A stretch of DNA of 37,505 nt from an uncultured Nitrosomonadales bacterium (lineage in GTDB: Bacteria > Pseudomonadota > Gammaproteobacteria > Burkholderiales > Gallionellaceae): assembly GCA_903876685.1 (NCBI GenBank), contig CAIRBC010000092.1:1-37505 (forward strand), written 5' to 3'. Below are positions 16,096-36,074 of this stretch, piece by piece; the stretch's first letter is position 1, and each line of letters begins with the position of its first letter. The notes below the pieces were generated by a model. That model searched no databases. It was not told the origin of the DNA and saw nothing but the letters and a program-made list of their open reading frames with translations. A program made the translations under genes and the position numbers.

Positions 16096-16113
16096 GACCG
16101 GCACCCGATTAGC

Positions 16114-18083: not shown

Positions 18084-18090
18084 GCTAGGT

Positions 18091-20499
18091 TCACGCAAAT
18101 TTAGCTAAGCCGTTCTTATCCCACAGACCCCAGTAGGCACCCACATCGCCTTCGAGTCCAACCTTCCAGGCTTCATCGAAGGCGGCAAAATAAAACAGTT
18201 CCAGCTGATCCTGTTCAGCCCAACGCTGGCTATCGATGAAGTAGCGCTTCGCCCCGTTTACCGAGGGCCTCGCACCGTAAAAGGCACTGCCCTTGTCAGG
18301 CCAACCGGTCTCACTGACGATGACCTTCTTGCCAGCGGCAACCGCGATAGTGCGACGAAGCATGTCCTGCATATAGGCGATCGCATTTTGTTCCGGACAC
18401 CCTTCCCAGAACGGATAGCAATTGGTCAACACCACGTCACAGGCCGCCGTGATGCGCGGATGCTTCTCGAACACATAATAGGCATCGACGTAGCCGACCG
18501 GAATATTCGGCAAAGCCTGTTTGACCCGGGCAATCAGCGCAAGCAGCGCGTCTTCAGACAAATCTTCGCGCAACAGCACCTCATTACCGACCGCCACTAT
18601 ATCGGCGTGACCGGCGAGTGCTACTTCAATCAGGCCGCTGATTTCGCGTTCGTTGATGGCGTGATCGGTGCCCAGCCACGCCCCTACCAACGTCTTGATC
18701 CCCAATTCATGGGCGATCTTCGGCGTCTGCTCGTGCCCGTCAGTACACGAAAAAGTACGAATCCAGCGCGTATAGGGACGAATCACCGAGAGTCTCTCAC
18801 GAATCTGTTCGGCGCTGATCTGCGAACCCGGTGACTGTCCTTCCAGGTAAGGACTGAAACAAAACCCGTGCACTCCCGCCTGCAGTACCGAGCGGAATTC
18901 CTCATCGAGCAATGCCTGTTCACCCCCGGTCAACGGTAGTTCCTGAACGGCAGCCTGCTCAACGGGCGGCAAGTGTTGTGCGTAGGGTGAAACATGATGG
19001 AACTGGGCTGGCGCTAATTTTGACATGCTAATCTCCAAATTTTCAGGCGGGGTGGCTGCGGCAACAGGGGAAGGTACCGGCTCAGACTCAAACTTACTCT
19101 CAAGCTCAGGCTCTTGCTCAGGTAATACATCAACAGAACGTGTTTTATCCGCACGCCGTTGTTGCAGTTCACGGGTCATCTTGCTGACCATATGCTCGTC
19201 AAGCTCGTAAAACCACAGTGCGCCTATCGCAATCAGCGCGCCTACCGTCGGAATAATGCTCATCATCATCATGATACCGTCGATGGTGCGCGCACTCTGC
19301 ACCACGTTTGGCTGATAACCGAAATAAGCCAGCAGCCAGCCGGTACCGGCTCCGCCAATCGCCCAGCCGAATTTCTGCGCGAAAGAGGCGGCGGAAAATA
19401 CCAGACCAGTAGCACGACGTCCGCTTTTCCACTCGGAATAATCTGCCGTATCGGCGTACATCGCCCAGACCAGAGGGGCGGTCGGTGCCGCACACAGGCT
19501 GATTAAGGCATGCGCACCCCATACCATGGCCAGATTATCCGGCGGCACAAAATAAAAGCCTGCGGTCAGTAAGGCGGTCAGTGCCATCGAAGCCATATAG
19601 AAATTGCGTTTGCCGAAGATTTTCGACAGCGGAGAGGTGACCATCACCCCGATGATAAAGGCGATTGCACCAGTGGTCATTACCGGTCCGAAATAATCCT
19701 TGCCACCCGGCACCACATTTTCAAAGTAATAGATGCTGACTGTGCCACGGATGTTGGCGTAGGTGAGTGCGGCGATGCCGACGATGCACAACACCACCCA
19801 GGGTTTGTTGCGAAACAGATCCTTGACATCTTCCTTGAGCGTAGACTGCTGTTTTTGCTCAGGCTGCACGCGCTCTTTAGTCATCGCGAAGGTCGCAAAA
19901 TACAGCAGCACCGCCACGCTCGAATAGATGATCATGGTCATTTGCCAGCCGCTGGCGGAATTTTCGCTGCCGCCGAAATAACTGGCGAACGGAATCGCGG
20001 TATTCACGATGATGAACACCGGCAGCAGCGCCATCACGAAGCGGTAGGAACAGACGCTGGTGCGATCCACAGAACTGGGCGTCAATACGCCCAGCAAGGC
20101 AGAATAAGGAATGTTTATCGCGGAATAAGCGACCATCATCAGGCTGAGTGTGACATAGGCGTAAACGATCCGGCCGGTACCGCCGAAAGAGGGAACCGTG
20201 AAGGTAAGCACCGCCGTGACTGCCATCGGGATCGCCATCCACACCAGATAAGGCCTGAAACTACCCCAGCGGGTTCGGGTACGATCCGCAAGCGCGCCAA
20301 TCACCGGGTCGATCAGCGCATCACCGATGCGGGTGACCAGCAGCATGGTTCCCATGGTGGCTGCACCCAGTAAAAACACATCGGTGTAATATTTCGCAAT
20401 AAAAATCGAGAACATCTGCCAGAACAGATTCGATGCCAGATCGCCGAAGCCATAGCCGATCTTCTCGGTCACCGTGAGTTTTGGAGTCTCATTTTCCAC
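18091..20499 (-). CDS. GPH-family sugar transporter fused to a GH17 domain
   Basis: An 802-aa fusion. Residues 1 to about 440 are a twelve-helix glycoside-pentoside-hexuronide:cation symporter, with GYGFGDLASN, RIGDALIDPVIGALADRT and RTRWGSFRPYLVW. An acidic, Pro/Glu-rich linker (about 445-500, EQEPELESKFESEP) leads to a complete GH17 domain with CFSPYLEGQSPG, acid/base Glu640 in AVGNEVL and nucleophile Glu730 in VIVSETGWP. GPH carriers have both ends in the cytoplasm, so the enzyme would sit on the inner face, at the channel exit. GTG 20499 is chosen because GGGAGG precedes it by five bases; it overlaps the GH16 gene by 11 bases. The track's 33-residue extension is basic, non-hydrophobic and reads into GH16. 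An internal ribosome site at the linker could also yield free GH17. Confidence 0.88.
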   Translation of the reverse strand: MENETPKLTVTEKIGYGFGDLASNLFWQMFSIFIAKYYTDVFLLGAATMGTMLLVTRIGDALIDPVIGALADRTRTRWGSFRPYLVWMAIPMAVTAVLTFTVPSFGGTGRIVYAYVTLSLMMVAYSAINIPYSALLGVLTPSSVDRTSVCSYRFVMALLPVFIIVNTAIPFASYFGGSENSASGWQMTMIIYSSVAVLLYFATFAMTKERVQPEQKQQSTLKEDVKDLFRNKPWVVLCIVGIAALTYANIRGTVSIYYFENVVPGGKDYFGPVMTTGAIAFIIGVMVTSPLSKIFGKRNFYMASMALTALLTAGFYFVPPDNLAMVWGAHALISLCAAPTAPLVWAMYADTADYSEWKSGRRATGLVFSAASFAQKFGWAIGGAGTGWLLAYFGYQPNVVQSARTIDGIMMMMSIIPTVGALIAIGALWFYELDEHMVSKMTRELQQRRADKTRSVDVLPEQEPELESKFESEPVPSPVAAATPPENLEISMSKLAPAQFHHVSPYAQHLPPVEQAAVQELPLTGGEQALLDEEFRSVLQAGVHGFCFSPYLEGQSPGSQISAEQIRERLSVIRPYTRWIRTFSCTDGHEQTPKIAHELGIKTLVGAWLGTDHAINEREISGLIEVALAGHADIVAVGNEVLLREDLSEDALLALIARVKQALPNIPVGYVDAYYVFEKHPRITAACDVVLTNCYPFWEGCPEQNAIAYMQDMLRRTIAVAAGKKVIVSETGWPDKGSAFYGARPSVNGAKRYFIDSQRWAEQDQLELFYFAAFDEAWKVGLEGDVGAYWGLWDKNGLAKFA
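19024..19036 (-). promoter_or_regulatory. Internal ribosome binding site and ATG at the GH17 boundary
   Basis: Inside the fusion gene, GGAG (19033-19036) stands six bases before an in-frame ATG (19026) that opens MSKLAPAQF. Starting there would give a 311-aa protein, almost the same length as the stand-alone GH17 next door (309 aa). This looks either like a relic of two separate genes or like a working site for a second product. Confidence 0.5.
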
Positions 20500-21397
20500 G
20501 TTTGCCTCCCGACTTCTTCTGGTACGGCAGCTTGCCCGGACCGCGCGGCGGCGCTTCGGCATAGCCGCCCACCTTATCGTAAACCCGCACGTAATCAATC
20601 ACCAACTCGGCAGGAAAGTGTGTTTCAGGATTAGGATGACCGGGGAAATTGCCGCCCACGGCGATGTTCATCAGCAAATAGAAAGGCTGGTCAAAGGGTG
20701 CCGGCCAGGGGTTGATGTCTGATTTCTTCTTGGCCTCGACCCCGACCCCCTCGACATTTTTGCTACAACTCCACCAGAAGTTCTGGGTTGCCCAGTGCAC
20801 GCCATCCAGCAGCCAGCGTATCTCGCCCGGTTCCCACTCCACCGTGTACACATGCCAGTCGCTGACCAGGCTGTCCTCAGGAATCTTGTGCACATGGGTA
20901 ATCAGCGAGCGCTTGGGATAAGTGGAGCCGTAATGAAGGGTACCCAGCACCTCGTCCGGTTTTTCGCCGACAATTTCCATCACGTCGATCTCACCGGACG
21001 CCGCCCACCCGCCATAATGATCAGTCAGCGGCAGCATCCACAGGGCAGGCCACATCCCTTTGCCCCAGGGCACTTTGGCGCGGAATTCAAATTTTCCATA
21101 CCGCTTGCTGAACAGCGGCGTACCGTCACGCTTCACTGTCTTCAGCCTGGCCGAGGTATACCCGCAACCGTGCAGCGATTCCTTGACCGCGCGTATAGTC
21201 AGCAGACTGTCTTTGACCGAGACATTTTCAGGCTCGCGAGTATAGTATTGTAGTTCCTCGTTTCCCCAACCGGGAATCCAGGCATGGTTCCGGTAGTCAT
21301 AAAACCCATTGCCCAGATCATAATCCCATTTCGCCGGGTCAATCCGGTCGCCCTCGAATTCGTCGTTCCAGACCATTACCCACTCATTTTCAGTCAT
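20489..21397 (-). CDS. GH16 laminarinase (cytoplasmic)
   Basis: A 302-aa glycoside hydrolase family 16 enzyme. The catalytic signature GEIDVMEIVG supplies nucleophile Glu136, Asp138 and acid/base Glu141; the extra Met makes it the beta-bulge form found in beta-1,3-glucanases (laminarinases) rather than lichenases. WNDEFEG, WGNEELQYYT, RYGKFEFRAKVP, GMWPALWMLP and FYLLMNIAVGGN are further family markers. ATG 21397 is favoured: GGGGG lies just upstream and the ATG overlaps the ATPase stop codon as ATGA; the track's 32-residue extension reads into the ATPase gene. There is no signal peptide, which is unusual, as most GH16 laminarinases are exported. It should cut longer imported beta-1,3-oligoglucans. 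Confidence 0.9.
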   Translation of the reverse strand: MTENEWVMVWNDEFEGDRIDPAKWDYDLGNGFYDYRNHAWIPGWGNEELQYYTREPENVSVKDSLLTIRAVKESLHGCGYTSARLKTVKRDGTPLFSKRYGKFEFRAKVPWGKGMWPALWMLPLTDHYGGWAASGEIDVMEIVGEKPDEVLGTLHYGSTYPKRSLITHVHKIPEDSLVSDWHVYTVEWEPGEIRWLLDGVHWATQNFWWSCSKNVEGVGVEAKKKSDINPWPAPFDQPFYLLMNIAVGGNFPGHPNPETHFPAELVIDYVRVYDKVGGYAEAPPRGPGKLPYQKKSGGKRGK

Positions 21398-22443
21398 GAA
21401 TTTCCCCCTGATTCCATCAATCTGCCATCCACATCGTACCTCAACACCCGGCTGGCATCCGGAGCGATACACACCATCTGGCCGGTAATGCACTGTCCGG
21501 CAACCACTTTCGCCTTTAGCAAGCCATTCACCCCCTCGACTTGCAGATGCAAAATAGAGGAATCGCCCAGATGTTCCGCCAGCACCACTAGCGCGGGTAT
21601 CCCCTGCCCGGCTAGGTGCAGGTGTTCGGGACGCAAGCCAATCCGCTGCACCGTTGCCGATCCCTGCAAGGCTTCCCAGAGCGCCAGGTGTGCGGCTGAA
21701 GCACTGTCCGGCCGGTCAATCAGGTTGATGTTCGGCATGCCGATAAAGTTGGCGACGAATTCATTGGCCGGGCGATGGTATAGATCCATCGGAGCGCCCA
21801 GCTGCTCGATATGTCCCTGGTTAAAAACGGCGATGCGATTACCCAGTGTCAGCGCCTCGACCTGATCGTGGGTGACATAAATCATGGTGGTCGCCAATTC
21901 CTTATGCAATCGGGAAAGTTCAGTACGCATACTCACCCGCAGCGCGGCATCCAGATTGGAGAGCGGCTCGTCGAACAGAAACACCGCCGGCTTGCGCACG
22001 ATCGCGCGACCAATCGCGACACGCTGACGCTGACCGCCAGACAGCTCCTTCGGATAGCGAGCCAACAATTCGACGATATGCAACACTTCTGCGGCACGAC
22101 CGACCTGCGCTGCACGCTGTTGCTTGGGTACTCCCGCCATCTTCAACGCGAAGCCCATGTTTTCAGCCACCGTCATATGCGGATACAGCGCATAGCTCTG
22201 AAACACCATCGCCGCACCTCGATCAGCCGGCCGCAGTTCGTTGGCGCGTACCCCGTCGATGCGCAATTCGCCGCCACTAATACTTTCCAGACCAGCAATC
22301 ATCCGCAACAGGGTCGATTTCCCGCAACCCGAAGGCCCGACAAACACCATGAATTCGCCGTCTTGCACCTCCAGATCAATGCCCTTGATGACGGACACTT
22401 CCGCATAATTTTTGCGGATGCCCTGCAAGGAAACCTGCCCCAT
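21394..22443 (-). CDS. ABC sugar importer ATPase, MsmK/UgpC/MalK type
   Basis: A 349-aa ATP-binding subunit. Walker A GPSGCGKST, signature LSGGQRQRVAIGRA, Walker B VFLFDEPLSNLD and the switch His in VTHDQVEAL are intact, and the C-terminal TOBE/OB region with IGLRPEHL marks the carbohydrate importer group. It powers the two membrane subunits encoded two genes upstream. ATG 22443 is chosen over the track start: GGAGG lies about ten bases upstream, the protein then begins MGQVSLQGIRKNY as in the family, and the longer form would read into the GH1 gene. It begins one base after the GH1 stop codon. Its stop overlaps the GH16 start by four bases. Confidence 0.95.
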   Translation of the reverse strand: MGQVSLQGIRKNYAEVSVIKGIDLEVQDGEFMVFVGPSGCGKSTLLRMIAGLESISGGELRIDGVRANELRPADRGAAMVFQSYALYPHMTVAENMGFALKMAGVPKQQRAAQVGRAAEVLHIVELLARYPKELSGGQRQRVAIGRAIVRKPAVFLFDEPLSNLDAALRVSMRTELSRLHKELATTMIYVTHDQVEALTLGNRIAVFNQGHIEQLGAPMDLYHRPANEFVANFIGMPNINLIDRPDSASAAHLALWEALQGSATVQRIGLRPEHLHLAGQGIPALVVLAEHLGDSSILHLQVEGVNGLLKAKVVAGQCITGQMVCIAPDASRVLRYDVDGRLMESGGNS

Positions 22444-22444
22444 T

Positions 22445-23797
22445 TCACGCCCTCCTTTTCTGGTTTCGCCGATCCCTGACGCCCAACAGATAGTCGCGAT
22501 ACCACAAGGCGCTATCCTTGAGTGTGCGTTGCTGGCTTTTATAATCGACGTGAATGATGCCGAAACGTTTTTCATAGCCCGAGGCCCACTCGAAATTATC
22601 CAATAGGCTCCACAGCATAAACCCCCTGATGTCTACGCCAGCTTGTAGCGCGATGCCGATTGCTTCGATATGCCGGGCTATGAAATCAATGCGCTGCGAG
22701 TCGTGAACTTTCCCGTTAAACAGCACATCCTTGAAGGCTGCGCCGTTTTCAGTGACGTAAACCGGCGGCAGCCGATAGTCCCTTTGCAAGCGCAACAGCA
22801 GTTCAGTAATTCCTTCAGGATAAATCTCCCACCCCATATCGGTGCAATCGAGACCACCGTCCTGAACCTGCCAACTGTTATCGGCACTTTCCACCTTGCG
22901 CGAGTAGTAATTGATCCCCAGAAAATCCATCGGAGTCGCAATAGCCTGCAGATCATTGTCTTGCATCACGGGGGCATCGCTACCGAGAAAATCAAGAACA
23001 TCCTGTGGATAGTGTTGTTTGAACAGCGAATCCATATACCAGCGTACCAGCTTGCCGTCCTTGAGCCGCGCCAACGCCTGATCAGCCGGACTATCCGTAG
23101 CCGGAACCACCGGCGCCAGGTTGAGCACGATGCCGAGTTGACTGCGAGTGCCCTGTGCGCGTAACGCCTGCAAGGTCAGACCATGACTGAGCAGCAGGTG
23201 GTGCGACACCTGCATCGCCACCTTGCGGCTTTTGACCCCCGGTGCAAATTCGCCGGTCTGGTGACCGAGGGTAGCCATCACCCAGGGTTCGTTGTGGGTG
23301 GTGATCGAAGTCACCCGATCGCCCAAGTGCTTGGCGACCTGAAGTCCATAGTCGACAAAATGCTGCACGGTATCACGGTTTGCCCAGCCGCCTTTGGCCT
23401 GCAAGGCTGCAGGCAAGTCCCAGTGATTCAGCGTCAGATAAGGCTGAATGCCCCGCGACAGCAGACCATCCACCAGCTTTTCATAAAAGGCCATCCCGGA
23501 CTCGTTCCAGGAACCCGTCCCCTGCGGACAGATGCGCGGCCAGGAAACCGAGAACCGGTAAGCATCTACCCCCAGCGAGGCGATCAGATCCAGATCCGGT
23601 TCAAGGCGATGATAATGGTCGCAGGCGATGTCGCCATTACTATGATCGGCAATCGCGCCTGGAATCTTGCAAAAATCATCCCAGATGGATTGCCCCTTGC
23701 CATCCGCAGCGGCTGCACCTTCAATCTGAAAGGCGCTGGTCGCAACCCCCCAGACAAAATCGGCCGGGAAAGTGAAAGTATTAACAAGGCGCTTCAT
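22445..23797 (-). CDS. GH1 beta-glucosidase
   Basis: A 450-aa family 1 beta-glucosidase. FPADFVWGVATSAFQIEG opens the domain; the acid/base is Glu170 in THNEPW and the nucleophile Glu350 in YVTENGA; WSLLDNFEWASGYEKRFG near the C-terminus is the aglycone-site signature. It has no signal peptide and would release glucose from the non-reducing end of imported short beta-glucosides such as laminaribiose or gentiobiose. The true start is ATG 23797, which overlaps the permease stop codon as ATGA and is preceded by AGGAG; the track's 36-residue extension lies in the permease gene. It sits inside the ABC transporter gene set, between the second permease and the ATPase. Confidence 0.95.
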   Translation of the reverse strand: MKRLVNTFTFPADFVWGVATSAFQIEGAAAADGKGQSIWDDFCKIPGAIADHSNGDIACDHYHRLEPDLDLIASLGVDAYRFSVSWPRICPQGTGSWNESGMAFYEKLVDGLLSRGIQPYLTLNHWDLPAALQAKGGWANRDTVQHFVDYGLQVAKHLGDRVTSITTHNEPWVMATLGHQTGEFAPGVKSRKVAMQVSHHLLLSHGLTLQALRAQGTRSQLGIVLNLAPVVPATDSPADQALARLKDGKLVRWYMDSLFKQHYPQDVLDFLGSDAPVMQDNDLQAIATPMDFLGINYYSRKVESADNSWQVQDGGLDCTDMGWEIYPEGITELLLRLQRDYRLPPVYVTENGAAFKDVLFNGKVHDSQRIDFIARHIEAIGIALQAGVDIRGFMLWSLLDNFEWASGYEKRFGIIHVDYKSQQRTLKDSALWYRDYLLGVRDRRNQKRRA

Positions 23798-24633
23798 TTG
23801 ACGGCTCCTGTCGTCAGGCCGGAAATCAGTTGTCTGGAGGACAACACAAACAGCACCACCAGCGGCAGGGTCGCAATCGCCGAACCGGTCATCAGGGCAC
23901 CCCATTCAGTATTAACCGGACTTTGTAAGCTGCGCAACGCCAGCGGCAAGGTGTACATCTCAGGGGTACGCATCACAATCAGCGGACCGATGAAGTTATT
24001 CCACGAGGCGATGAAGGTAATCAACCCCAGCGTGCCCAGTGCCGGTCGCAGTAACGGCAGCACGATGCGCAGATAAATGCTGAATTCGCCGCAGCCATCC
24101 ATGCGCGCCGCCTCGATCAGGTCTTTGGGGATGGTTGCGGCGACCGACTGGCGCATCAGAAAAATGCCGAAGGCGCTGGCAGCACCGGGGATATACAACG
24201 CTCTGGGCTGGTCGATCCAGCCCAGCATATCCATGATCATGAACGTCGGAATCATGTTCATAAAGGAAGGCAGCAGCATGGTCGCCATCACCAGCGCGAA
24301 CAGCATGTTCTTGAAACGGAACTGGAACATCGCGAAGGCATAACCGCCCATCGAACAGAACAACAGGGTCAAGGCGGTAGAGGCAATCGCCACATACAGG
24401 CTCCAGCCCAGGTTGCGCCAGAACGGCATGCGGCTGGTCAAAATTTCCAGATTCGCCAGAAAGTCGTCGCCAATAAACAGCGGCGGTGGCAGACTGAAAA
24501 TCTCGGTGCGCGAGTGGGTCGCGAACACAAACATGAAATAAAATGGAGCGAGCATCAGTAGTGCGCCTGTACCCACCAACAGGTAGGCTGCCCAGCTTGA
24601 AAGTTGCTCAGTTTGCCTATTCAACAGTTTCAC
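23794..24633 (-). CDS. ABC sugar importer permease, MalG type
   Basis: A 279-aa inner-membrane subunit with about six hydrophobic segments. The EAA loop that contacts the ATPase reads EAARMDGCGEFSIYLRIVLP (about 175-195). It pairs with the preceding MalF-type permease; the two genes overlap by four bases. With the solute-binding protein and the ATPase it forms a CUT1-type importer, the class that handles oligosaccharides. From context the substrate is beta-1,3-gluco-oligosaccharide. Confidence 0.95.
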   Translation of the reverse strand: MKLLNRQTEQLSSWAAYLLVGTGALLMLAPFYFMFVFATHSRTEIFSLPPPLFIGDDFLANLEILTSRMPFWRNLGWSLYVAIASTALTLLFCSMGGYAFAMFQFRFKNMLFALVMATMLLPSFMNMIPTFMIMDMLGWIDQPRALYIPGAASAFGIFLMRQSVAATIPKDLIEAARMDGCGEFSIYLRIVLPLLRPALGTLGLITFIASWNNFIGPLIVMRTPEMYTLPLALRSLQSPVNTEWGALMTGSAIATLPLVVLFVLSSRQLISGLTTGAVK

Positions 24634-25571
24634 GAGTGGGATTCTTTCGTACTAAATAAACGGTTAGTCAGCCAGGTCAGCAGCGCCACCACGATAAACA
24701 GTAACCAGGACATCGCGCTTGCCGCGCCAAAATCGTTGAAATCGAACGCCATACGATACAGATAGATCGCCGTCGTCATACCGGCCTGATCACTGCCGCC
24801 ACGCCCGCCGGTGAGAATAAAGGCCTCCTCGAACAGTTGCAAACCGCCGATCACCGACAGTGTTACTCCGAAAAAGATCATCGGTTTCAGGCTGGGCAAG
24901 GTGATAAACCAGAACTGCTGCCAGCGGCTGGCGCCATCCATGGTGGCCGCCTCATAAATATCCTTGGGTATGGTTTGCAGTGCGGCCAGATAAAGCACCA
25001 CATTGAAGCCGACATAGCGCCAGAACACGATCAACGCGATCGCCGGTTTGATGGTATCGGGATCGTTAAGCCAGTCCACCGGGTGTTGCGGCATTAGTCC
25101 ACCCAGCAAGGGTATCTGGCTTAAGCCGCTCAGCACGACATTAATCAACCCATAATCAGTGGAAAACAAGGAACTGAACAGAATCGCAATCGCGACCGTC
25201 GAGGTGATATAGGGCATGAAATACGCCCCGACCACGCCATTACGCAAACTGCCAAAGGAGGAATGAATGAAACAGGCCAGTGGAATCGCCACCAGATGTT
25301 GCGGCACACCCGACGCCAGCGCCAGCCAAGCGGTATTCTTTAGCGACTTCCAGAACCATTCATCCTGCAACGCGAAGGCGAAGTTGTCCCAACCAACAAA
25401 CTGCATCGCCGCCAGGCCGCTGGTAGGCTCCCAGGTCTGGAAGGCCAGATACAACGAAAACAGCAGCGGAAATACCCCGAATACCAGGAACAGCAGCACA
25501 AACGGGCTCAAAAATAGATAAGGCGCCAGTTCCGGCGACAGGCGGAATGCCATGAATTTTGCGGCGCGCAT
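24630..25571 (-). CDS. ABC sugar importer permease, MalF type
   Basis: A 313-aa inner-membrane subunit. SPELAPYLFLSPFVLLFLVFG is the usual first membrane span of MalF-type CUT1 permeases, and the EAA loop reads EAATMDGASRWQQFWFITLP. The start ATG 25571 shares one base with the stop codon of the binding-protein gene (TAATG), which indicates coupled translation. There is no strong Shine-Dalgarno sequence of its own. A second Met at codon 7 could also serve. Confidence 0.93.
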   Translation of the reverse strand: MRAAKFMAFRLSPELAPYLFLSPFVLLFLVFGVFPLLFSLYLAFQTWEPTSGLAAMQFVGWDNFAFALQDEWFWKSLKNTAWLALASGVPQHLVAIPLACFIHSSFGSLRNGVVGAYFMPYITSTVAIAILFSSLFSTDYGLINVVLSGLSQIPLLGGLMPQHPVDWLNDPDTIKPAIALIVFWRYVGFNVVLYLAALQTIPKDIYEAATMDGASRWQQFWFITLPSLKPMIFFGVTLSVIGGLQLFEEAFILTGGRGGSDQAGMTTAIYLYRMAFDFNDFGAASAMSWLLFIVVALLTWLTNRLFSTKESHS

Positions 25572-26857
25572 TAGCGATTAGCCCGGTGTTGCAGCAGGCG
25601 CTGCGCGTCTGCCAGGGCGGTGGTGATATCCTTGCCCCGATCCAGCACCTTGTCGAGTTCGGTATTGATCACCTCGTCGGCAAAGGCGTCCTGCTTGTGC
25701 ACGTCGATCGCCGTGATGTGGCTGGCCGCTTCGCGCCAGATAACGCGCGCTTTCTGCCCACCCAGAAAGGCGATCGGCAATTCAAAAAAGGGATCGTCAT
25801 AGCTTGAGCTCAGCGCAGGAAAGGCGTCCTGCACCTTGAAGGCGGCTAATTGAACCTCGCGGTTTTGCGTCATCAACTTGATAAATTCCCACGCCAGCCG
25901 TTTATGCGCCGCAGGCGCTCCCTTGGGTATGGCATAAAAAGTGCCTCCATAGGCCGCATAAGCCTGTTCGGGCAATTGTGCGGCGCGCCATAATCCCCGT
26001 GTGCCGGGAGCAAGCCAGGTATTCATATGTCCGGAAAGCCAGGCGCCGCTCATCTGCGTGGCGATGCCACCCCGTTTAAAACCTTCAGACCATTCGTTTG
26101 ACCAGGCAATCACTTTGGCATCCAGCTTCAGGGTACGCACCTTGCGCGCCAGTTCGAACGCCCGCACAAAGCGCGGTGTGTTGACCAGCACCCGCGACTG
26201 CTTATCGAAATACAGCCCTTCGCCCGGCTTGATACCGGTACGAATCATGATATCTTTCATGTCGCGGGCGTGGGCGATCAAATAAGCACCGGTGACCGCC
26301 TTGATCTGCACGCCGCTTTCCACGTAGCTATCCCAGGACTGGCGCATTTGCGCTTCAGTCACCCCTGCCTTATCCAGTAGGTCGATACGATACAACATAG
26401 TCCCGGGACCAATATCAGCAGGTGCAGCCACCACCGCACCATTTCGACTGGTGGCCTGAGCATAGGCATAAGGTACATAACCCGCTTGAAATTGACCGAT
26501 CGTGTAAGGTGCAAGTGCCAGATCTTCAAGCCCGCCCCCCTGAGCAAACCTGCCGACAAAGCCGACTTCAAGCGCCATTACGTCCGGCAAATAAAACGAA
26601 GTCGACAACGCCGTAATCATTGCAGTATGGTGATCGTTGAACTGACGACTGACCACCTTGATCTCCACCTCCGGATGCAGACGCTTCCATAAGGGAATCG
26701 CGGCTTTGACAATCTCGTCAACAGCAGGATAAGCCGCCACGGTCAGTGTCAGCGGCGGCTGAGAGTCAGTCTGACTGGCGCTGACGTCGCAGAGTGTCAG
26801 GCTGATCAAGCCCAGCACTGCTAACACTTTCCATGGAAAAAACCGCCTGCTGTTCAT
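25571..26857 (-). CDS. ABC sugar importer solute-binding protein (CUT1 type)
   Basis: A 428-aa periplasmic binding protein of the family 1 extracellular solute-binding type. The signal peptide spans about residues 1-28 (hydrophobic WKVLAVLGLISLTL, likely cut after VSA). The mature part opens with LTLTVAAYPAVDEIVK and has the usual APADIGPGTMLYRIDLLDKAG hinge region and YAIPKGAPAAHKRLAWEFIKLM near the C-terminus. Several exposed Trp residues (NEWSEGF, GAWLSG) could stack on sugar rings. It is the first gene of the ten-gene operon; an operator and a good promoter stand directly upstream. The ligand is inferred to be beta-1,3-gluco-oligosaccharide from its neighbours. Confidence 0.93.
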   Translation of the reverse strand: MNSRRFFPWKVLAVLGLISLTLCDVSASQTDSQPPLTLTVAAYPAVDEIVKAAIPLWKRLHPEVEIKVVSRQFNDHHTAMITALSTSFYLPDVMALEVGFVGRFAQGGGLEDLALAPYTIGQFQAGYVPYAYAQATSRNGAVVAAPADIGPGTMLYRIDLLDKAGVTEAQMRQSWDSYVESGVQIKAVTGAYLIAHARDMKDIMIRTGIKPGEGLYFDKQSRVLVNTPRFVRAFELARKVRTLKLDAKVIAWSNEWSEGFKRGGIATQMSGAWLSGHMNTWLAPGTRGLWRAAQLPEQAYAAYGGTFYAIPKGAPAAHKRLAWEFIKLMTQNREVQLAAFKVQDAFPALSSSYDDPFFELPIAFLGGQKARVIWREAASHITAIDVHKQDAFADEVINTELDKVLDRGKDITTALADAQRLLQHRANR

Positions 26858-27080: not shown

Positions 27081-29582
27081 TCATTGAAACTGGGTCAAGC
27101 CACGTGCGATGCCGGTCGGATAAACTGCCCCGGAAATGATAGTCGTGTTGATATTCGGATAGATCAACTGTGAATTGACTGCCCCGATCGGCTGCGCCAG
27201 TACCGCAGCGGCCGTGGTGTAATTTCCGCTATAAGGGGAGCCGCAGCCATTGCTAAGCGTGAAACTGGACAGCGGGATGGTATAGCCGATCATGGTGCTA
27301 CTGGTCGGATTCACACTGGCTGTCACCGTCGCATTGCATTTGTTAATACCGCTGGTATAGGTCTGCGCACCGACAATCGATACCGTAATCGACCGATTGC
27401 TCACCTGCTTGTAGAAATTTGCGTCTACACCCAGATTAATTAGCAGACTGGTCTGTCCATTCAAGGTCAGGCCATTGCCGGGATAAGTGACATACATGCC
27501 CACATAGCCACCGGCGGTTGGTGGAGTTGCGCCAGGCGCCGGTGCGGAGGGTGCTGAGGTAATCACCGATATCCAGAAATCCTGACTGGCGTCCGCTATC
27601 GCAGGCGCATAGTCCCCACCCGCATAAGTATTTGTATAATGAGTAAAGTCTCCGCTGACATAACCCCAGGTTCCGCCCTGAGCGGTGGTCTTGGTCGAAG
27701 TGAAGCCGCTGGCAAAGGTCAGCAAGGGTGCGACAGGCATCACCGAATTGGAAGCCGCAGACTCGATACTATTGCCGATGCTATTGGTCGCGTGCACGGT
27801 AAAGGTATAAGCGATTCCATTGCTCAGTCCGGTCATGGTATGCGACAACAACGTGCTTCCGGCATTGCTGTCCACCCCGCCGGACGGAACCGAACTGACC
27901 GTATAGCCGGTAATCGCGCTACCGCCATCCGAAGCCGGCGCAGTAAAAGCGACCGTTGCCAGCGCATTGCCAGCACTAGCCGTGCCGATGAGCGGAACAC
28001 CCGGAGCTGTAGGACTGGCCGGCGGCAAGGCAGGCGTGACGCTATTGGAAGCAGCCGATTCTGCGCTACTACCTATAGCGTTAGTCGCATGCACCTTGAA
28101 GCTGTAAACAACCCCGTTAGTCAGACCGGTTATCTGGTGCGTCAATGCGGTGGTACCCGCATTACTATCCACCCCCCCGCTGGGTGTGGAGGTCACGGTA
28201 TAACCCGTGATCGCGCTGCCACCATCACTGGCAGGTGCGGTGATGACCAGGGTCGCCTGTGCGTTACCCGCGCTAACCGAAGCAACAGCAGGTGCGCCCG
28301 GAACCGTCAGAGTGCCGCCCGCAAAGCGCAAATTATCGAAATAATAGTTGCGCAGGGCTGGCATCGGGGCAGAAGCAACACCGGTGTCGCTGCCCAGACC
28401 AAAGTCAAAAAAGACTGATGCCTTGTTATAACTGTAAGCCAGATTCAACGCCGGTGTACCGCTGGCGGCACTGGCAAAATTAAAGGTCAGTGTCTCCCAG
28501 GAGTTAGCTTTGGTCGAAACGGCTTCAGTCTCTACACTATGCTGGGAATTCGCCGAATCTTCCAGCTTGAGTCTCACATGCACACCGATCGCCGGACTGC
28601 AGACGTTTGCCGTCATGTTTTTTGCTGCAGAAAAATCGAGTGCGGTTCCGCTCCAAAGGGTGGTTCCCGCCCAGGAATTGGCAGAAACGGGCTTCTGGAC
28701 ATCCAGCACCTTGTTCGAAGCATTGGCCGGGTCTAGCGCAATGCTCGAGCCGGCGCCACCGAAATCGGTATGTAGCGGCGTCCCATCAAACGAGGCCAGC
28801 ACCGTGCCGCTTCCCGTATTACTGGCATTCCCGCAGGCACCGGTGCTTCCGCCAGCCGGCAACAATTTTGTGCCTTCCTCAATAGCATTCTTCAAATCAA
28901 CAGCGCCTGGACTGGACGGCAACTTGACTACACCTGCTTTGACAGCATCCAGTGCCGAACCGAGATTATCAGTGGTGGGCGACTGACCAGCTATAGTGCC
29001 TGCCAGCATGGCTGCGACCAGCTTGGCCACATAATGAGACTTGTTATCCGGCGGATTTGCAATGTAATCAGCGGTAATAGCACCGGCCGGAACACCCAGA
29101 TCACTTTGCACCTTGGCCTGAGCCTCGGCTACGCTGCTGGCAGGTTTTACCATCATGTTCAGCGAAACCATGGTCGTCAACGGTGAGACTATCGAAGGCG
29201 TTTCTGCTGGTGCCATCAGGGTATAGGTTTTCGAAACTGCGCTTGCCGGCAAATCATCAGCGTCGTGCGCAACACCCGCCGTGATCACCGCGACCAGATG
29301 TTTACCAGCGATAGAACTACCATAAGGTACCTTAAGGCTGAAGCTGCCTGAAGTGCCCGTGGTTTGCTGAGGATCGCTGGGATCACAGACCCCGTTACTG
29401 TTTTTCAGCGGCAGACAAACCGTTGCGCCGCTAATATATCCATCCATCAACGTACCTGTCAGAGTCGGCCCCTGCAGTACGCCACCGCCACCACAAGCCG
29501 CCAGCGTCAAGGCGACTAGTGCAGCAGCACAGGTTTTATAGTGTGACGCCCTGCCCCGGATTTCATTGACTGCTGCAAACAT
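27081..29582 (-). CDS. Surface lipoprotein with FN3 and putative glucan-binding modules
   Basis: An 833-aa protein of unrecognised overall type. The N-terminus has a lipoprotein signal with lipobox LTLAAC followed by GGGG. A short carboxypeptidase-regulatory-like stretch (GTLMDGYISGATVCLP) comes next, then a beta-sandwich module that looks carbohydrate-binding (about 261-418, ending YYFDNLRFAGG), two fibronectin type III domains (about 427-517 and 527-614), and a C-terminal module (621-833) that I cannot name. The last and the beta-sandwich modules both have relatives in the 1639-aa GH17 protein. No catalytic domain is seen, so it probably binds glucan at the cell surface. ATG 29582 is chosen because GGGAG precedes it and the lipobox then falls at a normal distance. 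A LacI-type operator stands 81 bases upstream. Confidence 0.75.
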   Translation of the reverse strand: MFAAVNEIRGRASHYKTCAAALVALTLAACGGGGVLQGPTLTGTLMDGYISGATVCLPLKNSNGVCDPSDPQQTTGTSGSFSLKVPYGSSIAGKHLVAVITAGVAHDADDLPASAVSKTYTLMAPAETPSIVSPLTTMVSLNMMVKPASSVAEAQAKVQSDLGVPAGAITADYIANPPDNKSHYVAKLVAAMLAGTIAGQSPTTDNLGSALDAVKAGVVKLPSSPGAVDLKNAIEEGTKLLPAGGSTGACGNASNTGSGTVLASFDGTPLHTDFGGAGSSIALDPANASNKVLDVQKPVSANSWAGTTLWSGTALDFSAAKNMTANVCSPAIGVHVRLKLEDSANSQHSVETEAVSTKANSWETLTFNFASAASGTPALNLAYSYNKASVFFDFGLGSDTGVASAPMPALRNYYFDNLRFAGGTLTVPGAPAVASVSAGNAQATLVITAPASDGGSAITGYTVTSTPSGGVDSNAGTTALTHQITGLTNGVVYSFKVHATNAIGSSAESAASNSVTPALPPASPTAPGVPLIGTASAGNALATVAFTAPASDGGSAITGYTVSSVPSGGVDSNAGSTLLSHTMTGLSNGIAYTFTVHATNSIGNSIESAASNSVMPVAPLLTFASGFTSTKTTAQGGTWGYVSGDFTHYTNTYAGGDYAPAIADASQDFWISVITSAPSAPAPGATPPTAGGYVGMYVTYPGNGLTLNGQTSLLINLGVDANFYKQVSNRSITVSIVGAQTYTSGINKCNATVTASVNPTSSTMIGYTIPLSSFTLSNGCGSPYSGNYTTAAAVLAQPIGAVNSQLIYPNINTTIISGAVYPTGIARGLTQFQ

Positions 29583-29663
29583 GCTGTACTCCCTGCTGTG
29601 AATTTTTACGGTGACTGCCAGAGCCGAATTTCCTGTCGAGTGAAACGGAAATCCGTGACCATC

Positions 29664-29677
29664 TGAAAGCGCTTTCA
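29664..29677. promoter_or_regulatory. LacI-family operator before the lipoprotein gene
   Basis: Perfect palindrome TGAAAGCGCTTTCA, 81 bases before ATG 29582. A weak promoter (TTGCAA at 29703-29708, 17-base spacer, TAAATT at 29680-29685, minus strand) lies immediately upstream of it, giving the same operator-after-promoter order as in front of the ABC operon. Confidence 0.85.
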
Positions 29678-29761
29678 TTAATTTATTCCAAATTAACACA
29701 TATTGCAACTTGCATTTTCAAGGCATCACAACCGCCAATTTAGCCGTCCCGCAATTTTGCT

Positions 29762-29818: not shown

Positions 29819-32800
29819 TTAAGGATGATTGACCCAGAAACCAGTGGTCGGACTCAAGCTCTTGCCCGCCGTTGGATCACTAAAGTCCAGATAAGTCTTG
29901 GTTGAAATATAGGATGACAAGCTACCATTATTATCCAGAACCGGCGTATAGAAGAACCAGTTCATTTTGACATTATCCCAGGCCCACAAGGAAATAAGGC
30001 TGTTTGAGGCGTTCGCACCCAATACAGGTGACGGTGACGTAACAGCGACCTGGTTGACAAACGCTCTGGGCGATGAACCATCCCCGACAGTGATCAGACT
30101 CCAGCCTGGAGGCAAGGCATTCGCACCTATAGCTGAATCCTGATCTTTAAAGTCACTCACCTTGACCGCGTTTCCTGCCGGCAATTGAATCGTGAAAGTC
30201 GCAGAAGCATTCACCCAGAAACCCTCACCACCATTGACTATGGAAAGCACATCATAGCCTTTCGACAAAGCATAAGCGGCTAGCTGTGCCGGAGTCATGG
30301 CAGGGGTATAGAAAGCCCATCTTTGGGTCTTGGAAACCCATTTCCAGACGGTGGTTACCTGACTTTGCGTCTGATCCCCTAACTTGGTCACATCCAGCGC
30401 TGTACTGCTGCTGTTACCTAGCAAGTTCCAACCCTTAGTCACAGCAACCATTGGCGTAAACACCGCAGTAATCGAGCAATTGGCTGTGATCACCCCGGTG
30501 GTATAGGTACTACCACTGAGGCTACCGCCGCAACCTGACACCGAAACAGTGACATAGCCTGCATTGGGTGAAACCGTAAAGCTTGTGGTCGCACCCGGAG
30601 CCACCGTCTGTGTGGCAGGACTGAAGCTGCCATAGAGGCCGGCATTGGCAGTAACCGTTAGCGTACTGGCTGGCGTAACGGCGTTGGAGGCTGCCGATTC
30701 CAGGCTGCTGCCGACCGCATTAATCGCATGTACCGTGAAGGTATAGCTGGTTCCGTTGGTCAAGCCGGTCACGGTATGGGTCAAGGCATTACTGCCCGTA
30801 TTGCTGTCCGTGCCACCGGCAGGAATCGATTTCACCGTGTATCCGGTAATCGTGCTGCCACCATTGCTGGCCGGGGCGGTGAAGTTGACGATCGCCTGAG
30901 CGTTGCCACCGGTAGCGGTTCCGATGGTCGGTGCACCAGGAACGGTGGCAGAACCAGAGCCTGCTCCTGGGGTCAGATCATCGAAATAGTACACGCGGTC
31001 AGCAGGCATCGGCCCGGAACCGCCATTTCCAAGTCCAAAATCCGGGAAAACCGACACCTTGTTATAGGTTTTAGTCAAGTCCAGCGCGGCTGTGGGTCCA
31101 CCACCGACAGGTGGTGCAAGTCCCGGATTAGCAAAATTGAAAGTCAAGGTTTCCCAGGCGTTCGCCACCGTGGTGATTGCGTCCGTTTCCACGCTAATGC
31201 CGTCGTTTGATGCGTCTTCGACTTTCAGACGAATCCTTATACCTGCTGCCGGACTGTAAGACCGCAGAGTCAAGATCTTGCTGTTGGCACTGAACGGAAT
31301 AGACGCTATAGCGTTGAATCCCGAATTACGGCCACCTGTGGGATTTACGTTAAGCAATGCAATCGTGGTACCACCCCAGGTTTCAGAGCCGGTTGCCTGT
31401 TTCTTGTAGACTTTCAGCACCTTGTTACTGCCGCCTGCAGGATCTGCCACGACTTCAGAGGGTGTACCATTCAAGCCAAAGTCAACCATCGTGGGTGGCG
31501 GCGTTTCGTCGAAAGTCACCAACTGGTTGCCGGCTGGCGCTGCACCACCCACAAATACCGTCATGCCGCGGGTAATTCCCGTCGCATAAACAGGCGCGCC
31601 TACAGTCCCGGAATTAACCGTGGTATTAAGGTTAGGGTAGCTCAACTGGGTGTTGATCGCGCCGATCGGTTGTGCCAGTGCCGCAGCAGCGGTAGTGAAG
31701 TTACCAGAGAAGGGTGCACCGCAACCTTGCGCCAGCGTGAATTTGCTCAGCGGAATGGTGTAGGTCGTCATCGCATCAGAGGTCGGGGTCACCGTGGTCG
31801 TCACCGAAGTATTGCATAAACCGCCGCTGCCGTTACTGTACTGTTGCGCGCCAACGATGAAGATGGTGATGTCCTTATTGGTCGCTTGTTTAAAGAAATC
31901 AGCATCCATACCCAGATTAATCGCCAGACTGGTCTGTCCTGAGAGAGCCAGTCCTGCGCCTGGATAAGTCACATACATACCCAGATAGCCGCCTGCAGTG
32001 GGCGGGGTAGCACTCGGAGCAGGGGCTGTCGGGGCTGTCGTGGTCACCGCAATATAGAAATACTGGTTCGCATCCGCCACCGCAGGTGAGGAATCGGCAA
32101 AACCGCCACCGGTGTAGGTGTTGGCATAATTGGTGAAATCTCCGCTGAAATATCCCCAACTGCCGCCCTGCGAAGTACCATAGGTCGAGGTGAACCCACT
32201 GGCAAAGGTCAGGCTTCCACCCGCAGCAGTGGCCGAAGGTGTCACCGCATTGGATGCAGCCGACTCAGCGCTGTTGCCGGTGGAATTAGTTGCATGCACC
32301 GTGAACGTATAGCTGGTTCCGTTGGTCAAGCCGGTGATGATATGCGTCAACCCTGTCGTAGCAGTATTGCTGTCTACGCCCCCGGCAGGGAATGAAGTCA
32401 CTGTGTAACCAGTGATTGCACTGCCGCCGGTATTGGCAGGTGCGGTAAAGGTAACCACAGCCTTGGCATTGCCACCCGTCGCCGTCACCGAAGCCGGTAC
32501 ACCGGGAACCGTCGCCGCGATTGTACCTGCCCAGAAATAAAGGTTGTCTATATACACCGTATTCCCGCCAGGCGTTCCGACAAACTTGAATTGGAAAATA
32601 TTGGTTTTAGCCGGAATTGTGTAAGCGCTCAGTGGAATATCAAAACTGTTCCAGCCTGTGGTCGTAGGATGCAACGTATAGGGCTGCTCTAGTGCGGGTG
32701 CTCCGGGCGAAATCAGGTACACATCCAGCGCAGTGGTAGTCGCAGCCCACACATCAATGTGTAGATAACTCATCCCGCTCACATCGATGCCGGTATTGGG

Positions 32801-34738
32801 AGAAAGCTCCAACCCCTGATAGCCCAGATTTGCATATTTGAGAATGTGGCTTCCCGTGACAATTATCTCAGACTCAACCGTAGACTGACCCCAGTTCGGG
32901 TTGAGGTTAAAACCCGCGCCAGTCATCGCTCCATAAGTATCCCCATAAATCGATATATAGGTACCGGCGGTTCTGACTGGGGGGGTAGTCGGATTGACGG
33001 TCGGGTCTGAGCCGCCTACGGCAGGCGCTGAAAAAGTTGCTGCTGCATACAACGGACTGGTGCAGGCAGGTGCACCGGTGACCGCAGTCACGCCACACAA
33101 GGCATAGCGAGTGTTGCGACTGGCATCCCAAAGACCCCAGCCATCATCGTTGTTTTTCCAGGCTTCGTCAAAGGCTTCGAAATAAAATACGGTTTTCGGT
33201 CCCGTTGCACCGTTCTGCCAGGCATCCATCGCGTCGTAATACATTTTGGCATTGACAGGGTTTGCACAGCAGTTTTCCAGCGGATTGGCTGCATTGGTGA
33301 CCATCGCCTTCCAGCCGGTTTCACCCACCACGATCGGCAGGTTCGCTCCTCCATGACTGGCAATATAAGTTGCGACCTGGTTATAACTGTCTTTTGCGTT
33401 TTGCAGCGCCGCACTCATCATAGCAGACGCACTGCCGGTATTCTGATAAGTCCAGCGATTAGGATTGCTCATCGGATAAGTGTGCATCGACACGAAGTCC
33501 AGCAGCGGTAAAATGCTATCCGGCAACTCCGTGGCACCAGATCCCCCTGCGAAGAAGGTGTAATCGTCATCTGCCGTCACCGGCTGAGTAATACCCTGTT
33601 TAACCGTGGTGATATAGCCCTTCAGACAGGCCACCGGCATATAAGCGCTAAAGAAGGAAGTCTCGTTACCCACACTGACTGAAACTACATTCGAATATGT
33701 ATTGGCTTCCCGGATGCCATTTTGTACGTCAGTATCATTGGCTGGGCTGGCACAGCTGGCCTGACTGGCTGGAGCAATTCCCGACAGGTAAATGCCCAGC
33801 TGAAACTTCAGACTGGAGAAACTCGCAGCCGCGACGCGCAGAATATTTTCATGTGAAAGATCGGTATCGAACAGGCGCAGCAGGGTATATCCGGCGGAAC
33901 TGAGTTTGGTCAAATCCTCGGTAATCTGCGCATCGGTAGGCACTTCACTGGCACCCGGACCGCCAGCACGATAGGCGCTGTAGTTAATCGCCTTGACATT
34001 ATTTGCATAAACTGCAGGTAAAGCACGCAGCGCCAGTGAATTTCCGCCCGAGACAGTTGCCGTTTCAAAGGAGATGCCGCCCAGATTGAGACCGTTTGGA
34101 TAAGCGCCTGCTGTTCCGTTTGTGGTAAATTGCATATTAGCCTGCAGCAGTTGTGCATGTACCTCTTTCAGCGGCAACGCCAGAAATGCAGCCATGGTAC
34201 TGGTTCCACAACCACTGATTGTCCAATTAGCGTCGGTGAGGGTTTTAGTATAAGTAGTCGCTGTCGTGGGAGCTGCAACCCCATTCCCGGTATTCACCGC
34301 CGTTGCCATGATGGTGATCGGGCTGTTTGCAGTCGCTGTACAGCTGGCTGATTTTAAAATAAGCGTTGCAGCACAATGCCCTACACATTCTGTGTTAGTA
34401 CCCAAGCCGACAGTAATGGAAGTCGCACCGGTGATATTCCAGGTATTACTGCCTGCACCCGCAACATACACGCCAATGCCTGCCCCCGTACCCGTTGGAT
34501 CCACGCCATCGCCCCGGTACACCGAGTCAGTGCCTACACCGCCCCACCAATAGGTTGGCGACGGACTGCCAAATTCATATCCAGACGCGGTATTGTTCCC
34601 AGGTAATGCAGCACCGGATGCAGGCACATAAGAATCCTGGCTCGCCGTCTGATTCTGCACCACAATGACTGTCGCAGAGGAAAGCACAGGGAAAAACAAG
34701 GTAAACAGGATGAAAAACCGTACTACTATCGAACACAT
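29819..34738 (-). CDS. Secreted multidomain GH17 beta-1,3-glucanase
   Basis: A 1639-aa exported protein. Signal peptide to about residue 22 (FFILFTLFFPVLSSA). After a 220-residue N-terminal region of unknown type comes a GH17 domain (about 249-551) with acid/base Glu in SVGNETSFF and nucleophile in PIVVGETGWKA. Then follow a putative binding module (591-738; NPNWGQSTVESEI, YIDNLYFWAG), FN3 (746-835), an unnamed module (844-1064) shared with the lipoprotein, a second putative binding module (1073-1256), FN3 (1264-1358), an InlB B-repeat-like domain (1360-1431) and a C-terminal duplicated module, each copy running from a GWNLLG/GWSLI motif to GFWVN. ATG 34738 follows GAGGAG; the track's TTG is part of that ribosome site. 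It should attack insoluble or long glucan outside the cell. Confidence 0.87.
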   Translation of the reverse strand: MCSIVVRFFILFTLFFPVLSSATVIVVQNQTASQDSYVPASGAALPGNNTASGYEFGSPSPTYWWGGVGTDSVYRGDGVDPTGTGAGIGVYVAGAGSNTWNITGATSITVGLGTNTECVGHCAATLILKSASCTATANSPITIMATAVNTGNGVAAPTTATTYTKTLTDANWTISGCGTSTMAAFLALPLKEVHAQLLQANMQFTTNGTAGAYPNGLNLGGISFETATVSGGNSLALRALPAVYANNVKAINYSAYRAGGPGASEVPTDAQITEDLTKLSSAGYTLLRLFDTDLSHENILRVAAASFSSLKFQLGIYLSGIAPASQASCASPANDTDVQNGIREANTYSNVVSVSVGNETSFFSAYMPVACLKGYITTVKQGITQPVTADDDYTFFAGGSGATELPDSILPLLDFVSMHTYPMSNPNRWTYQNTGSASAMMSAALQNAKDSYNQVATYIASHGGANLPIVVGETGWKAMVTNAANPLENCCANPVNAKMYYDAMDAWQNGATGPKTVFYFEAFDEAWKNNDDGWGLWDASRNTRYALCGVTAVTGAPACTSPLYAAATFSAPAVGGSDPTVNPTTPPVRTAGTYISIYGDTYGAMTGAGFNLNPNWGQSTVESEIIVTGSHILKYANLGYQGLELSPNTGIDVSGMSYLHIDVWAATTTALDVYLISPGAPALEQPYTLHPTTTGWNSFDIPLSAYTIPAKTNIFQFKFVGTPGGNTVYIDNLYFWAGTIAATVPGVPASVTATGGNAKAVVTFTAPANTGGSAITGYTVTSFPAGGVDSNTATTGLTHIITGLTNGTSYTFTVHATNSTGNSAESAASNAVTPSATAAGGSLTFASGFTSTYGTSQGGSWGYFSGDFTNYANTYTGGGFADSSPAVADANQYFYIAVTTTAPTAPAPSATPPTAGGYLGMYVTYPGAGLALSGQTSLAINLGMDADFFKQATNKDITIFIVGAQQYSNGSGGLCNTSVTTTVTPTSDAMTTYTIPLSKFTLAQGCGAPFSGNFTTAAAALAQPIGAINTQLSYPNLNTTVNSGTVGAPVYATGITRGMTVFVGGAAPAGNQLVTFDETPPPTMVDFGLNGTPSEVVADPAGGSNKVLKVYKKQATGSETWGGTTIALLNVNPTGGRNSGFNAIASIPFSANSKILTLRSYSPAAGIRIRLKVEDASNDGISVETDAITTVANAWETLTFNFANPGLAPPVGGGPTAALDLTKTYNKVSVFPDFGLGNGGSGPMPADRVYYFDDLTPGAGSGSATVPGAPTIGTATGGNAQAIVNFTAPASNGGSTITGYTVKSIPAGGTDSNTGSNALTHTVTGLTNGTSYTFTVHAINAVGSSLESAASNAVTPASTLTVTANAGLYGSFSPATQTVAPGATTSFTVSPNAGYVTVSVSGCGGSLSGSTYTTGVITANCSITAVFTPMVAVTKGWNLLGNSSSTALDVTKLGDQTQSQVTTVWKWVSKTQRWAFYTPAMTPAQLAAYALSKGYDVLSIVNGGEGFWVNASATFTIQLPAGNAVKVSDFKDQDSAIGANALPPGWSLITVGDGSSPRAFVNQVAVTSPSPVLGANASNSLISLWAWDNVKMNWFFYTPVLDNNGSLSSYISTKTYLDFSDPTAGKSLSPTTGFWVNHP

Positions 34739-34930
34739 AACAAAACTCCTCAATGTTTTTTATTCCCTGCCGCTCAAAAAAATCCACCCTTTCAATTGCA
34801 TAAGCAATTGATCAAGAATGATTTAATCCGCAACAAATATTAAATCACCACACGGCGTCTGTTTTATTTCTTGGAAAAAACAGCACTGCAACCCGTCAGT
34901 AACACCCTCGATTTTTTCTAAAATTTATCG

Positions 34931-35030: not shown

Positions 35031-36074
35031 TCAAATAGGGCAGGATCGGGTTGATTTTCGAATGACTAACTCGGGTGCAGGGTTATCAGAAGCATGCGTT
35101 TCCCCTGCTATCAATTTGAGCATGGTGACTGCTGCAATTTTGCCGATTTCTCGTATCGAGTGCCTGACGGTGGTGAGCGGGGGAATCATAAAAGATGAGT
35201 TTAGCAGATCATCAAAACCGACCAGCGAAATGTCGTCGGGCACACGCAACCCGCGATTGTACAAGGCGAGTGCAGCGCCATAGGCCATCTGATCGTTGGA
35301 TGCAAAAATCGCCGTAAAACGGCTACCCGAATCCAGCAACTTCAGCGTTGCCGCTTCGCCACCAGTTTCCATGAATTGTCCCTGCACGCAAAGCTTGGGA
35401 TCAAAAGGCAGGTTATGCGCTTTCAATGCTGCACGGTAGCCCTTGAATCGTTCAATCGCATCGTGATGACTGGAAATCCCCTTTAGAAAGGCGATACGGG
35501 TATGACCCAAGCCTATTAAATGTTCGGTGGCCATTTTCGCGCCGGTATAGTTATCAAAATTGAAACTATGTAACCTTTCCGAACTCAGCATTCTGCTGGT
35601 GACCACCATGGGGGTGCGGATAGACCGTTCAAGCAACACTTCATCCGGCAGGCAGGCTGACAGGATGATGATGCCATCGACGCGGCGTCCTTCCAGAAAA
35701 TTGATGCAACCCAGTTCGAAATCTTCACGCCAGTGACTGCTGACAAACAGGGGTGCATAATTTGCCGCAATCAATATTTCTTCAATACCGACCATGGCCT
35801 GACCATAATAAGGGCTGCCAAACACTTGGGTGATAATACCGATACTGTGACTTTTACCTCCCGCAAGTCCACTGGCGATGGGATTTGATACAAAACTCAG
35901 CTTCTTGATGGCTACTTCGATTGCTCTGCGTTTGATCTCGCTGACTTTTGCGGTACCATTTAAAAATCGCGAAACGGTGCTGGGAGAAACGCCTGCTTCT
36001 GCAGCAACCATTTCCAGCGTGGTAACCGGTTCTTCCGAGTAATTTTTGAGCTTGCCGGGTACTTGCATTGACAT
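35031..36074 (-). CDS. LacI-family transcriptional regulator of the glucan locus
   Basis: A 347-aa regulator. The N-terminal helix-turn-helix (about 17-60) has TTLEMVAAEAGVSPSTVSRF and LNGTAKVS, followed by the hinge NPIASGLAGG, in which the Leu would intercalate at the central CpG of the operator. The rest is a periplasmic-binding-protein-like effector domain with IGIITQVFGSPYYGQAMVGI, FASNDQMAYGAALAL and ISLVGFDD. CG-centred palindromes such as TGAAAGCGCTTTCA are typical targets of this family, and four such sites stand in front of the glucan units but none before this gene. It is inferred to repress the locus and to be released by a beta-gluco-oligosaccharide or its breakdown product. Translation could also start at Met3. 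Confidence 0.92.
   Translation of the reverse strand: MSMQVPGKLKNYSEEPVTTLEMVAAEAGVSPSTVSRFLNGTAKVSEIKRRAIEVAIKKLSFVSNPIASGLAGGKSHSIGIITQVFGSPYYGQAMVGIEEILIAANYAPLFVSSHWREDFELGCINFLEGRRVDGIIILSACLPDEVLLERSIRTPMVVTSRMLSSERLHSFNFDNYTGAKMATEHLIGLGHTRIAFLKGISSHHDAIERFKGYRAALKAHNLPFDPKLCVQGQFMETGGEAATLKLLDSGSRFTAIFASNDQMAYGAALALYNRGLRVPDDISLVGFDDLLNSSFMIPPLTTVRHSIREIGKIAAVTMLKLIAGETHASDNPAPELVIRKSTRSCPI

Follow-up and report, generated by a model that had tools for sequence, protein, structure and literature searches.

The window, meaning the whole 37,505-nucleotide stretch analysed here, is a beta-1,3-glucan locus in which two exported proteins, a secreted multimodular GH17 protein and a lipoprotein, together carry three copies of a module of about 200–220 amino acids. 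Its features, in order of position, are as follows.

7564-8916, minus strand: conserved secreted protein, porin-like by eye from its signal peptide and C-terminal Phe (without a Pfam match)
8967-11276, minus: GH81 endo-beta-1,3-glucanase
11414-12757, plus: GH30
12943-16104, minus: GH161 beta-1,3-glucan phosphorylase (PDB 9qqk, E 9e-200)
16114-17094, minus: glucokinase
17154-18098, minus: second GH17
18091-20598, minus: GPH/MFS transporter-GH17 fusion (PF13347 plus a C-terminal GH17 domain, 835 aa)
20489-21493, minus: GH16
21394-26857, minus: ABC sugar importer (binding protein PF01547; an ATPase and two permeases recognised by reading the sequence)
22445-23905, minus: GH1 beta-glucosidase, within the ABC importer region
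27081-29708, minus: lipoprotein with module copy 2 (the Cys of its LAAC lipobox at about 29493-29495)
27087-27722, minus: module copy 2, 212 residues at the C-terminus of the lipoprotein
29819-34753, minus: GH17 protein, secreted and multimodular (1644 aa with a TTG start at 34753)
30683-30919, minus: FN3 of the GH17 protein, residues 1279-1357 (Pfam)
30959-31540, minus: second module shared by both proteins, residues about 1072-1265 of the GH17 protein (sequence relative of PDB 8qx6, E 1.2e-5; without a Pfam match)
31553-32212, minus: module copy 1, residues 848-1067, between an FN3 and the second CBM-like module
32234-32512, minus: FN3 before copy 1, about residues 748-840 (Pfam PF00041 and the duplicated-block alignment)
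32519-32956, minus: CBM-like module M3, residues 600-745 (without a Pfam family)
33122-34036, minus: GH17 catalytic domain (PF00332 over residues 451-552; PDB 6fcg over 253-539, E 2.9e-16)
34064-34681, minus: module copy 3, residues about 25-230, directly after the signal peptide
35031-36074, minus: LacI-family regulator

The porin-like protein recurs, at 28-67% identity, in the majority of the beta-1,3-glucan loci that were compared and is a candidate outer-membrane channel for laminari-oligosaccharides. The GH161 protein went unrecognised by Pfam at E 1e-4. Transporter-GH17 fusions about 64% identical to that of the window are present in two other loci (L029 and L033), and the combination of a transporter with a glucanase domain is unusual.

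The GH17 protein runs from its signal peptide through copy 3, the GH17 domain, M3, FN3, copy 1, the 8qx6-like module, a further FN3 and an InlB-type repeat to a Trp-rich C-terminus (29822-30450, minus strand). This last part consists of two similar halves with W..FYTP motifs, has no family match and is possibly an anchoring or sorting domain. Relatives of M3 were found in L013 (70% identity), where it forms the C-terminal domain of a lipoprotein, and in L014 (39%). The lipoprotein of the window comprises an 8qx6-like module (about 28308-28811, minus strand), two FN3 domains and, at its C-terminal end, copy 2; 8qx6-like modules also occur in L016/L041 and, weakly, in L013.

An earlier note on this DNA had described an unnamed module common to the two proteins. 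The shared module is real, but its boundaries in the GH17 protein were slightly off (31545-32205, against 31553-32212 found here). Copies 1 and 2, the latter comprising residues 663-874 in the longest open reading frame or 621-832 from the likelier ATG start (MFAAVNEIRG...), are identical at 146/220 positions (66%; BLASTP E 3e-108; z = 80 against 500 shuffles). Over the aligned codons, amino acid identity is 69% and third positions are 43% identical; this low third-position identity beside a conserved protein indicates a duplication that is old and under purifying selection rather than recent. The homology also extends further than the note had stated. A block of FN3 plus module at residues 748-1067 of the GH17 protein corresponds to 567-874 of the lipoprotein (66%), a second block of CBM-like module plus FN3 at 1074-1362 corresponds to 300-560 (52%), and the two stand in a different order in the two proteins. 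The FN3 neighbour that the note had proposed is confirmed by Pfam PF00041, whose profile matches beside the module and nowhere inside it.

Copy 3, overlooked in the note, is 26-28% identical to copies 1 and 2 (z 6.7 and 9.5 against shuffles). It was recovered at i-E 2.1e-13 by a profile of the group A relatives built without the copy 3 row, and at i-E 1.1e-10 by a profile from group A together with a divergent lipoprotein group, B. Given this homology, the catalytic domain of the GH17 enzyme has a copy of the module to either side. A search for a fourth copy in the window's genome found none.

Neither as a single sequence nor as a profile does the module match any family in Pfam, NCBIfam or PDB sequences, which agrees with the note's statement that it could be assigned to no known family; by 'new family' we mean here absence from these three collections. 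We found no account of the module in the literature consulted, most of it outside subscription papers and exclusive of CAZy itself. Several candidate relationships were rejected: Pfam PA-IIL (E 0.07) and Erf4 (0.21) on copy 2 lay below the cut-off and were not repeated in relatives; ClpP2 (PDB phmmer, E 0.6) was a chance match; M3 gave a weak hhalign result (probability 18%) with a common IPLSxxT strand; and the 8qx6-like neighbour showed no relation to the module by hhalign. Nor has the module a sequence relation to 8qx6 itself.

Searches starting from the module yielded relatives in three other Gallionellaceae genera (L003-L005) and in two further genomes of the order (L008 and L009). Among 369 genomes drawn across the class, at a cut-off of 1e-5, only the window's own genome matched, and a plasmid search gave no match to the module. 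Two order-level matches in open reading frames of about 8000 aa (G185 and G433; E 5e-5 and 4e-4) were dropped, as they covered model positions 7-96 only; the one of these that was read (L010) is a cadherin/Big-like repeat protein. The module alignment contains no conserved stretch with which contigs could be scanned directly, and the wider scan therefore used the GH17 domain. Over 84,980 species it gave 13 loci, several with further module copies, which belong to group A (L024, L026) or to group B (L024, L026, L030, L029, L033); the scan biases these extra relatives (group B) towards GH17 loci, and the association statistics below use the module-first searches only. Group A alone recovers four of the five group B proteins (E 4e-8 to 6e-4) and misses the L026 member (E 20). 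In hhalign, groups A and B are linked with a probability of 96% (E 4e-9). The sources of the relatives include metagenome-assembled contigs.

The surroundings of the relatives resemble those in the window. A GH17 protein carries the module in the window and likewise in L004 and L005; with no acid conserved (below), it resembles CBMs in being a discrete non-catalytic module attached to carbohydrate-active enzymes. In L013 a lipoprotein with the module has GH81 on one side and LacI/ABC genes on the other; in L016/L041 the module adjoins GH81 and is accompanied by GH17, GH1, ABC and LacI genes; and in L015 it occurs with GH16, GH30 and GH81. In one genome (G319), a group B module gene beside GH81 (L035 / L040:11555-12514, minus strand) is broken by a single TAA, which makes it either a pseudogene or an assembly error, and an intact group A copy lies beside GH17 on another contig.

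Two Cys, one Tyr and one Phe are invariant in the 15-row alignment, in which extra cysteines are likewise paired, and group A has an aromatic strand at positions 52-54 (YWY, FYF, YFF and similar). The conserved Cys pair probably forms a disulfide. No Asp or Glu is conserved throughout these 15 relatives, which makes a hydrolase unlikely. A novel glycosidase or lyase domain would account for the module's place in exported enzymes and for nothing more, and with no acid conserved through the family and the top structural matches (below) being binding or accessory domains, we regard a catalytic role as extremely improbable.

The AlphaFold2 model of copy 1, computed from the 15-sequence alignment, is a beta-sandwich (mean pLDDT 75.6, pTM 0.78), as the 'beta-rich' look remarked on in the note had led one to expect and as in the CBM11 jelly roll. 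In its second half most strands reach a pLDDT of about 90. Three loops that may contact the ligand (39-48, 66-73 and 196-205) fall below 50. Foldseek against the PDB placed CBM11 first (E 2.6e-7, probability 1.00, a modest TM of 0.45-0.56 and 13-15% identity), its top-matching structure having been solved with a beta-1,3-1,4-glucan tetrasaccharide. CIA30 followed (7zkq, E 4.5e-5), with CBM15, CBM28 and the laminarin-binding CBM 8qx6 (E 0.05, probability 0.89) further down. The model of copy 3 is poorer (mean pLDDT 63.9, pTM 0.67, the first 66 residues below 50) with a similar core, and its Foldseek matches, all above E 0.001, were led by CIA30 (4.8e-3), a mannanase with its CBM, and CBM28.

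The best structural match might be taken to mean that the module is a strongly diverged true member of CBM11. We consider this very improbable, since the CBM_11 profile (PF03425) matches none of the 15 members at E 10 and nothing anywhere in the window contig, and the identity and TM values are as low as given above. CIA30 (PF08547) was likewise not among the matches of the 15 members at E 10. By predicted fold and by place the module looks CBM-like; the profile test places it outside CBM11. Chain 7zkq_A, which we take to be the CIA30 / NDUFAF1 domain, belongs to a complex I assembly factor for which we know of no link to glycans; a similar fold without known carbohydrate binding means that fold alone is no proof of binding.

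Among 158 Gallionellaceae genomes, the four with the module are the same four that have GH81 (P 4e-8; 1.6e-6 once the window's genome is left out), and among 399 genomes of the order all three with the module have GH81, which occurs in four (P 4e-6 when the dropped matches in G185 and G433 are counted), all of these being figures from few genomes that are not independent and whose kinship is ignored. The sole GH81 genome of the order set that lacks the module (G188) has an isolated GH81, with the rest of the locus absent from the 18.6 kb read. These tables show an association of the module with beta-1,3-glucanases, not its function.

The association bears on a structural explanation in which the module, like bacterial Ig/FN3-type domains, would set distance or protect the enzyme and bind no glycan. 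Its alternation with FN3 domains, its low-complexity Thr/Ser/Ala-rich sequence and the same fold in CIA30, which is not known to bind glycans, are consistent with such a spacer. Spacers are promiscuous, however, and in the 158 family genomes the module is found only alongside GH81; it also stands at protein ends (closing the lipoprotein and directly following the GH17 protein's signal peptide), where there is nothing to space, and in group B and part of group A it is the last domain of a lipoprotein. We therefore judge a spacer unlikely. If the enzyme and lipoprotein copies bound one another, or bound the porin-like protein, and so kept the enzyme at the surface, this would explain why both proteins of one locus carry the same module and why the porin-like protein is conserved in most loci. 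In L013 and L016, however, the module lies on a lipoprotein beside a GH81 that lacks it, with no matched pair seen there, and glycan-binding modules are among the closest folds, which leaves a protein-protein tether quite unlikely.

We favour, at a probability of roughly 0.68 with the mechanism below included, the reading that the module is a beta-1,3-glucan-binding, non-catalytic beta-sandwich CBM of a new family, similar in fold to CBM11 and CIA30. The note had leaned towards a carbohydrate-binding module, and the genomic association with beta-1,3-glucanases, the CBM11-like predicted fold and the FN3 neighbours support it; that the neighbouring duplicated module is a relative of laminarin-binding 8qx6 also fits a glucan-binding role. 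The ligand would be laminarin, curdlan or another such glucan from algae or fungi. The lipoprotein would present its copy on the outer membrane, presumably exposed at the far end of a chain of 8qx6-like and FN3 domains, and would thereby retain the polymer on the cell surface. The two copies in the GH17 enzyme would keep the enzyme on the same polymer during cutting. In the sequence of steps that we infer, GH81, GH16 and GH17 would cut oligosaccharides from the polymer. These would be taken in through the porin-like protein and then the ABC importer, and the GH161 phosphorylase, GH1 and glucokinase would degrade them, with the LacI-type regulator in control.

More tentatively, and at somewhat less than even odds, the module would found a new CBM family (group A plus the divergent lipoprotein group B) and mark a transferable, SusCD-independent locus for beta-1,3-glucan capture and uptake, by which members of the iron-oxidising, mostly autotrophic Gallionellaceae feed on algal or fungal glucan. 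Heterotrophy is not something for which Gallionellaceae isolates are known. Genes for degrading polysaccharides have been recorded in the family (PMC10734482). The window's genome, at 4.8 Mb, is large for its genus (listed congeners 1.6-3.4 Mb) and lies in 600 contigs, so that the host assignment is not beyond doubt. CBMs decide which polymer an enzyme or a cell holds. Should the proposal be right, a sequence family would be added to annotation libraries, in which such stretches are now blank, and a marker would be available for a Proteobacteria glucan locus without SusCD.

Among known systems, the module most resembles CBM11 (CtCBM11 of Lic26A-Cel5E; PDB 1v0a, 6r3m, 6r31) in its beta-sandwich, predicted here, and in accompanying beta-glucanases as an accessory. 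A cleft on the concave side of CtCBM11 takes up a single chain, with a preference for beta-1,3-1,4 glucan (PMC5849603), whereas the locus of the module points to beta-1,3-glucan; the module also exceeds CBM11 in length, at 220 residues against 170-175, and differs in its conserved Cys pair. CIA30 shares a similar predicted fold at 11-12% identity, without a Pfam match of the module. The laminarin-binding CBM X584 (8qx6, whose entry title names a novel laminarin-binding CBM) matches the module at the level of fold, and its sequence relative is the adjoining module in the same two proteins. Polysaccharide utilisation loci (PULs) of Bacteroidota have surface glycan-binding lipoproteins of the SusD/E/F type. 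The lipoprotein proposed here to hold glucan at the outer surface, encoded beside a polysaccharide locus, would be their counterpart; unlike in those loci, SusC/SusD are absent among the window genes scanned, and uptake looks like that of a porin combined with an ABC importer.
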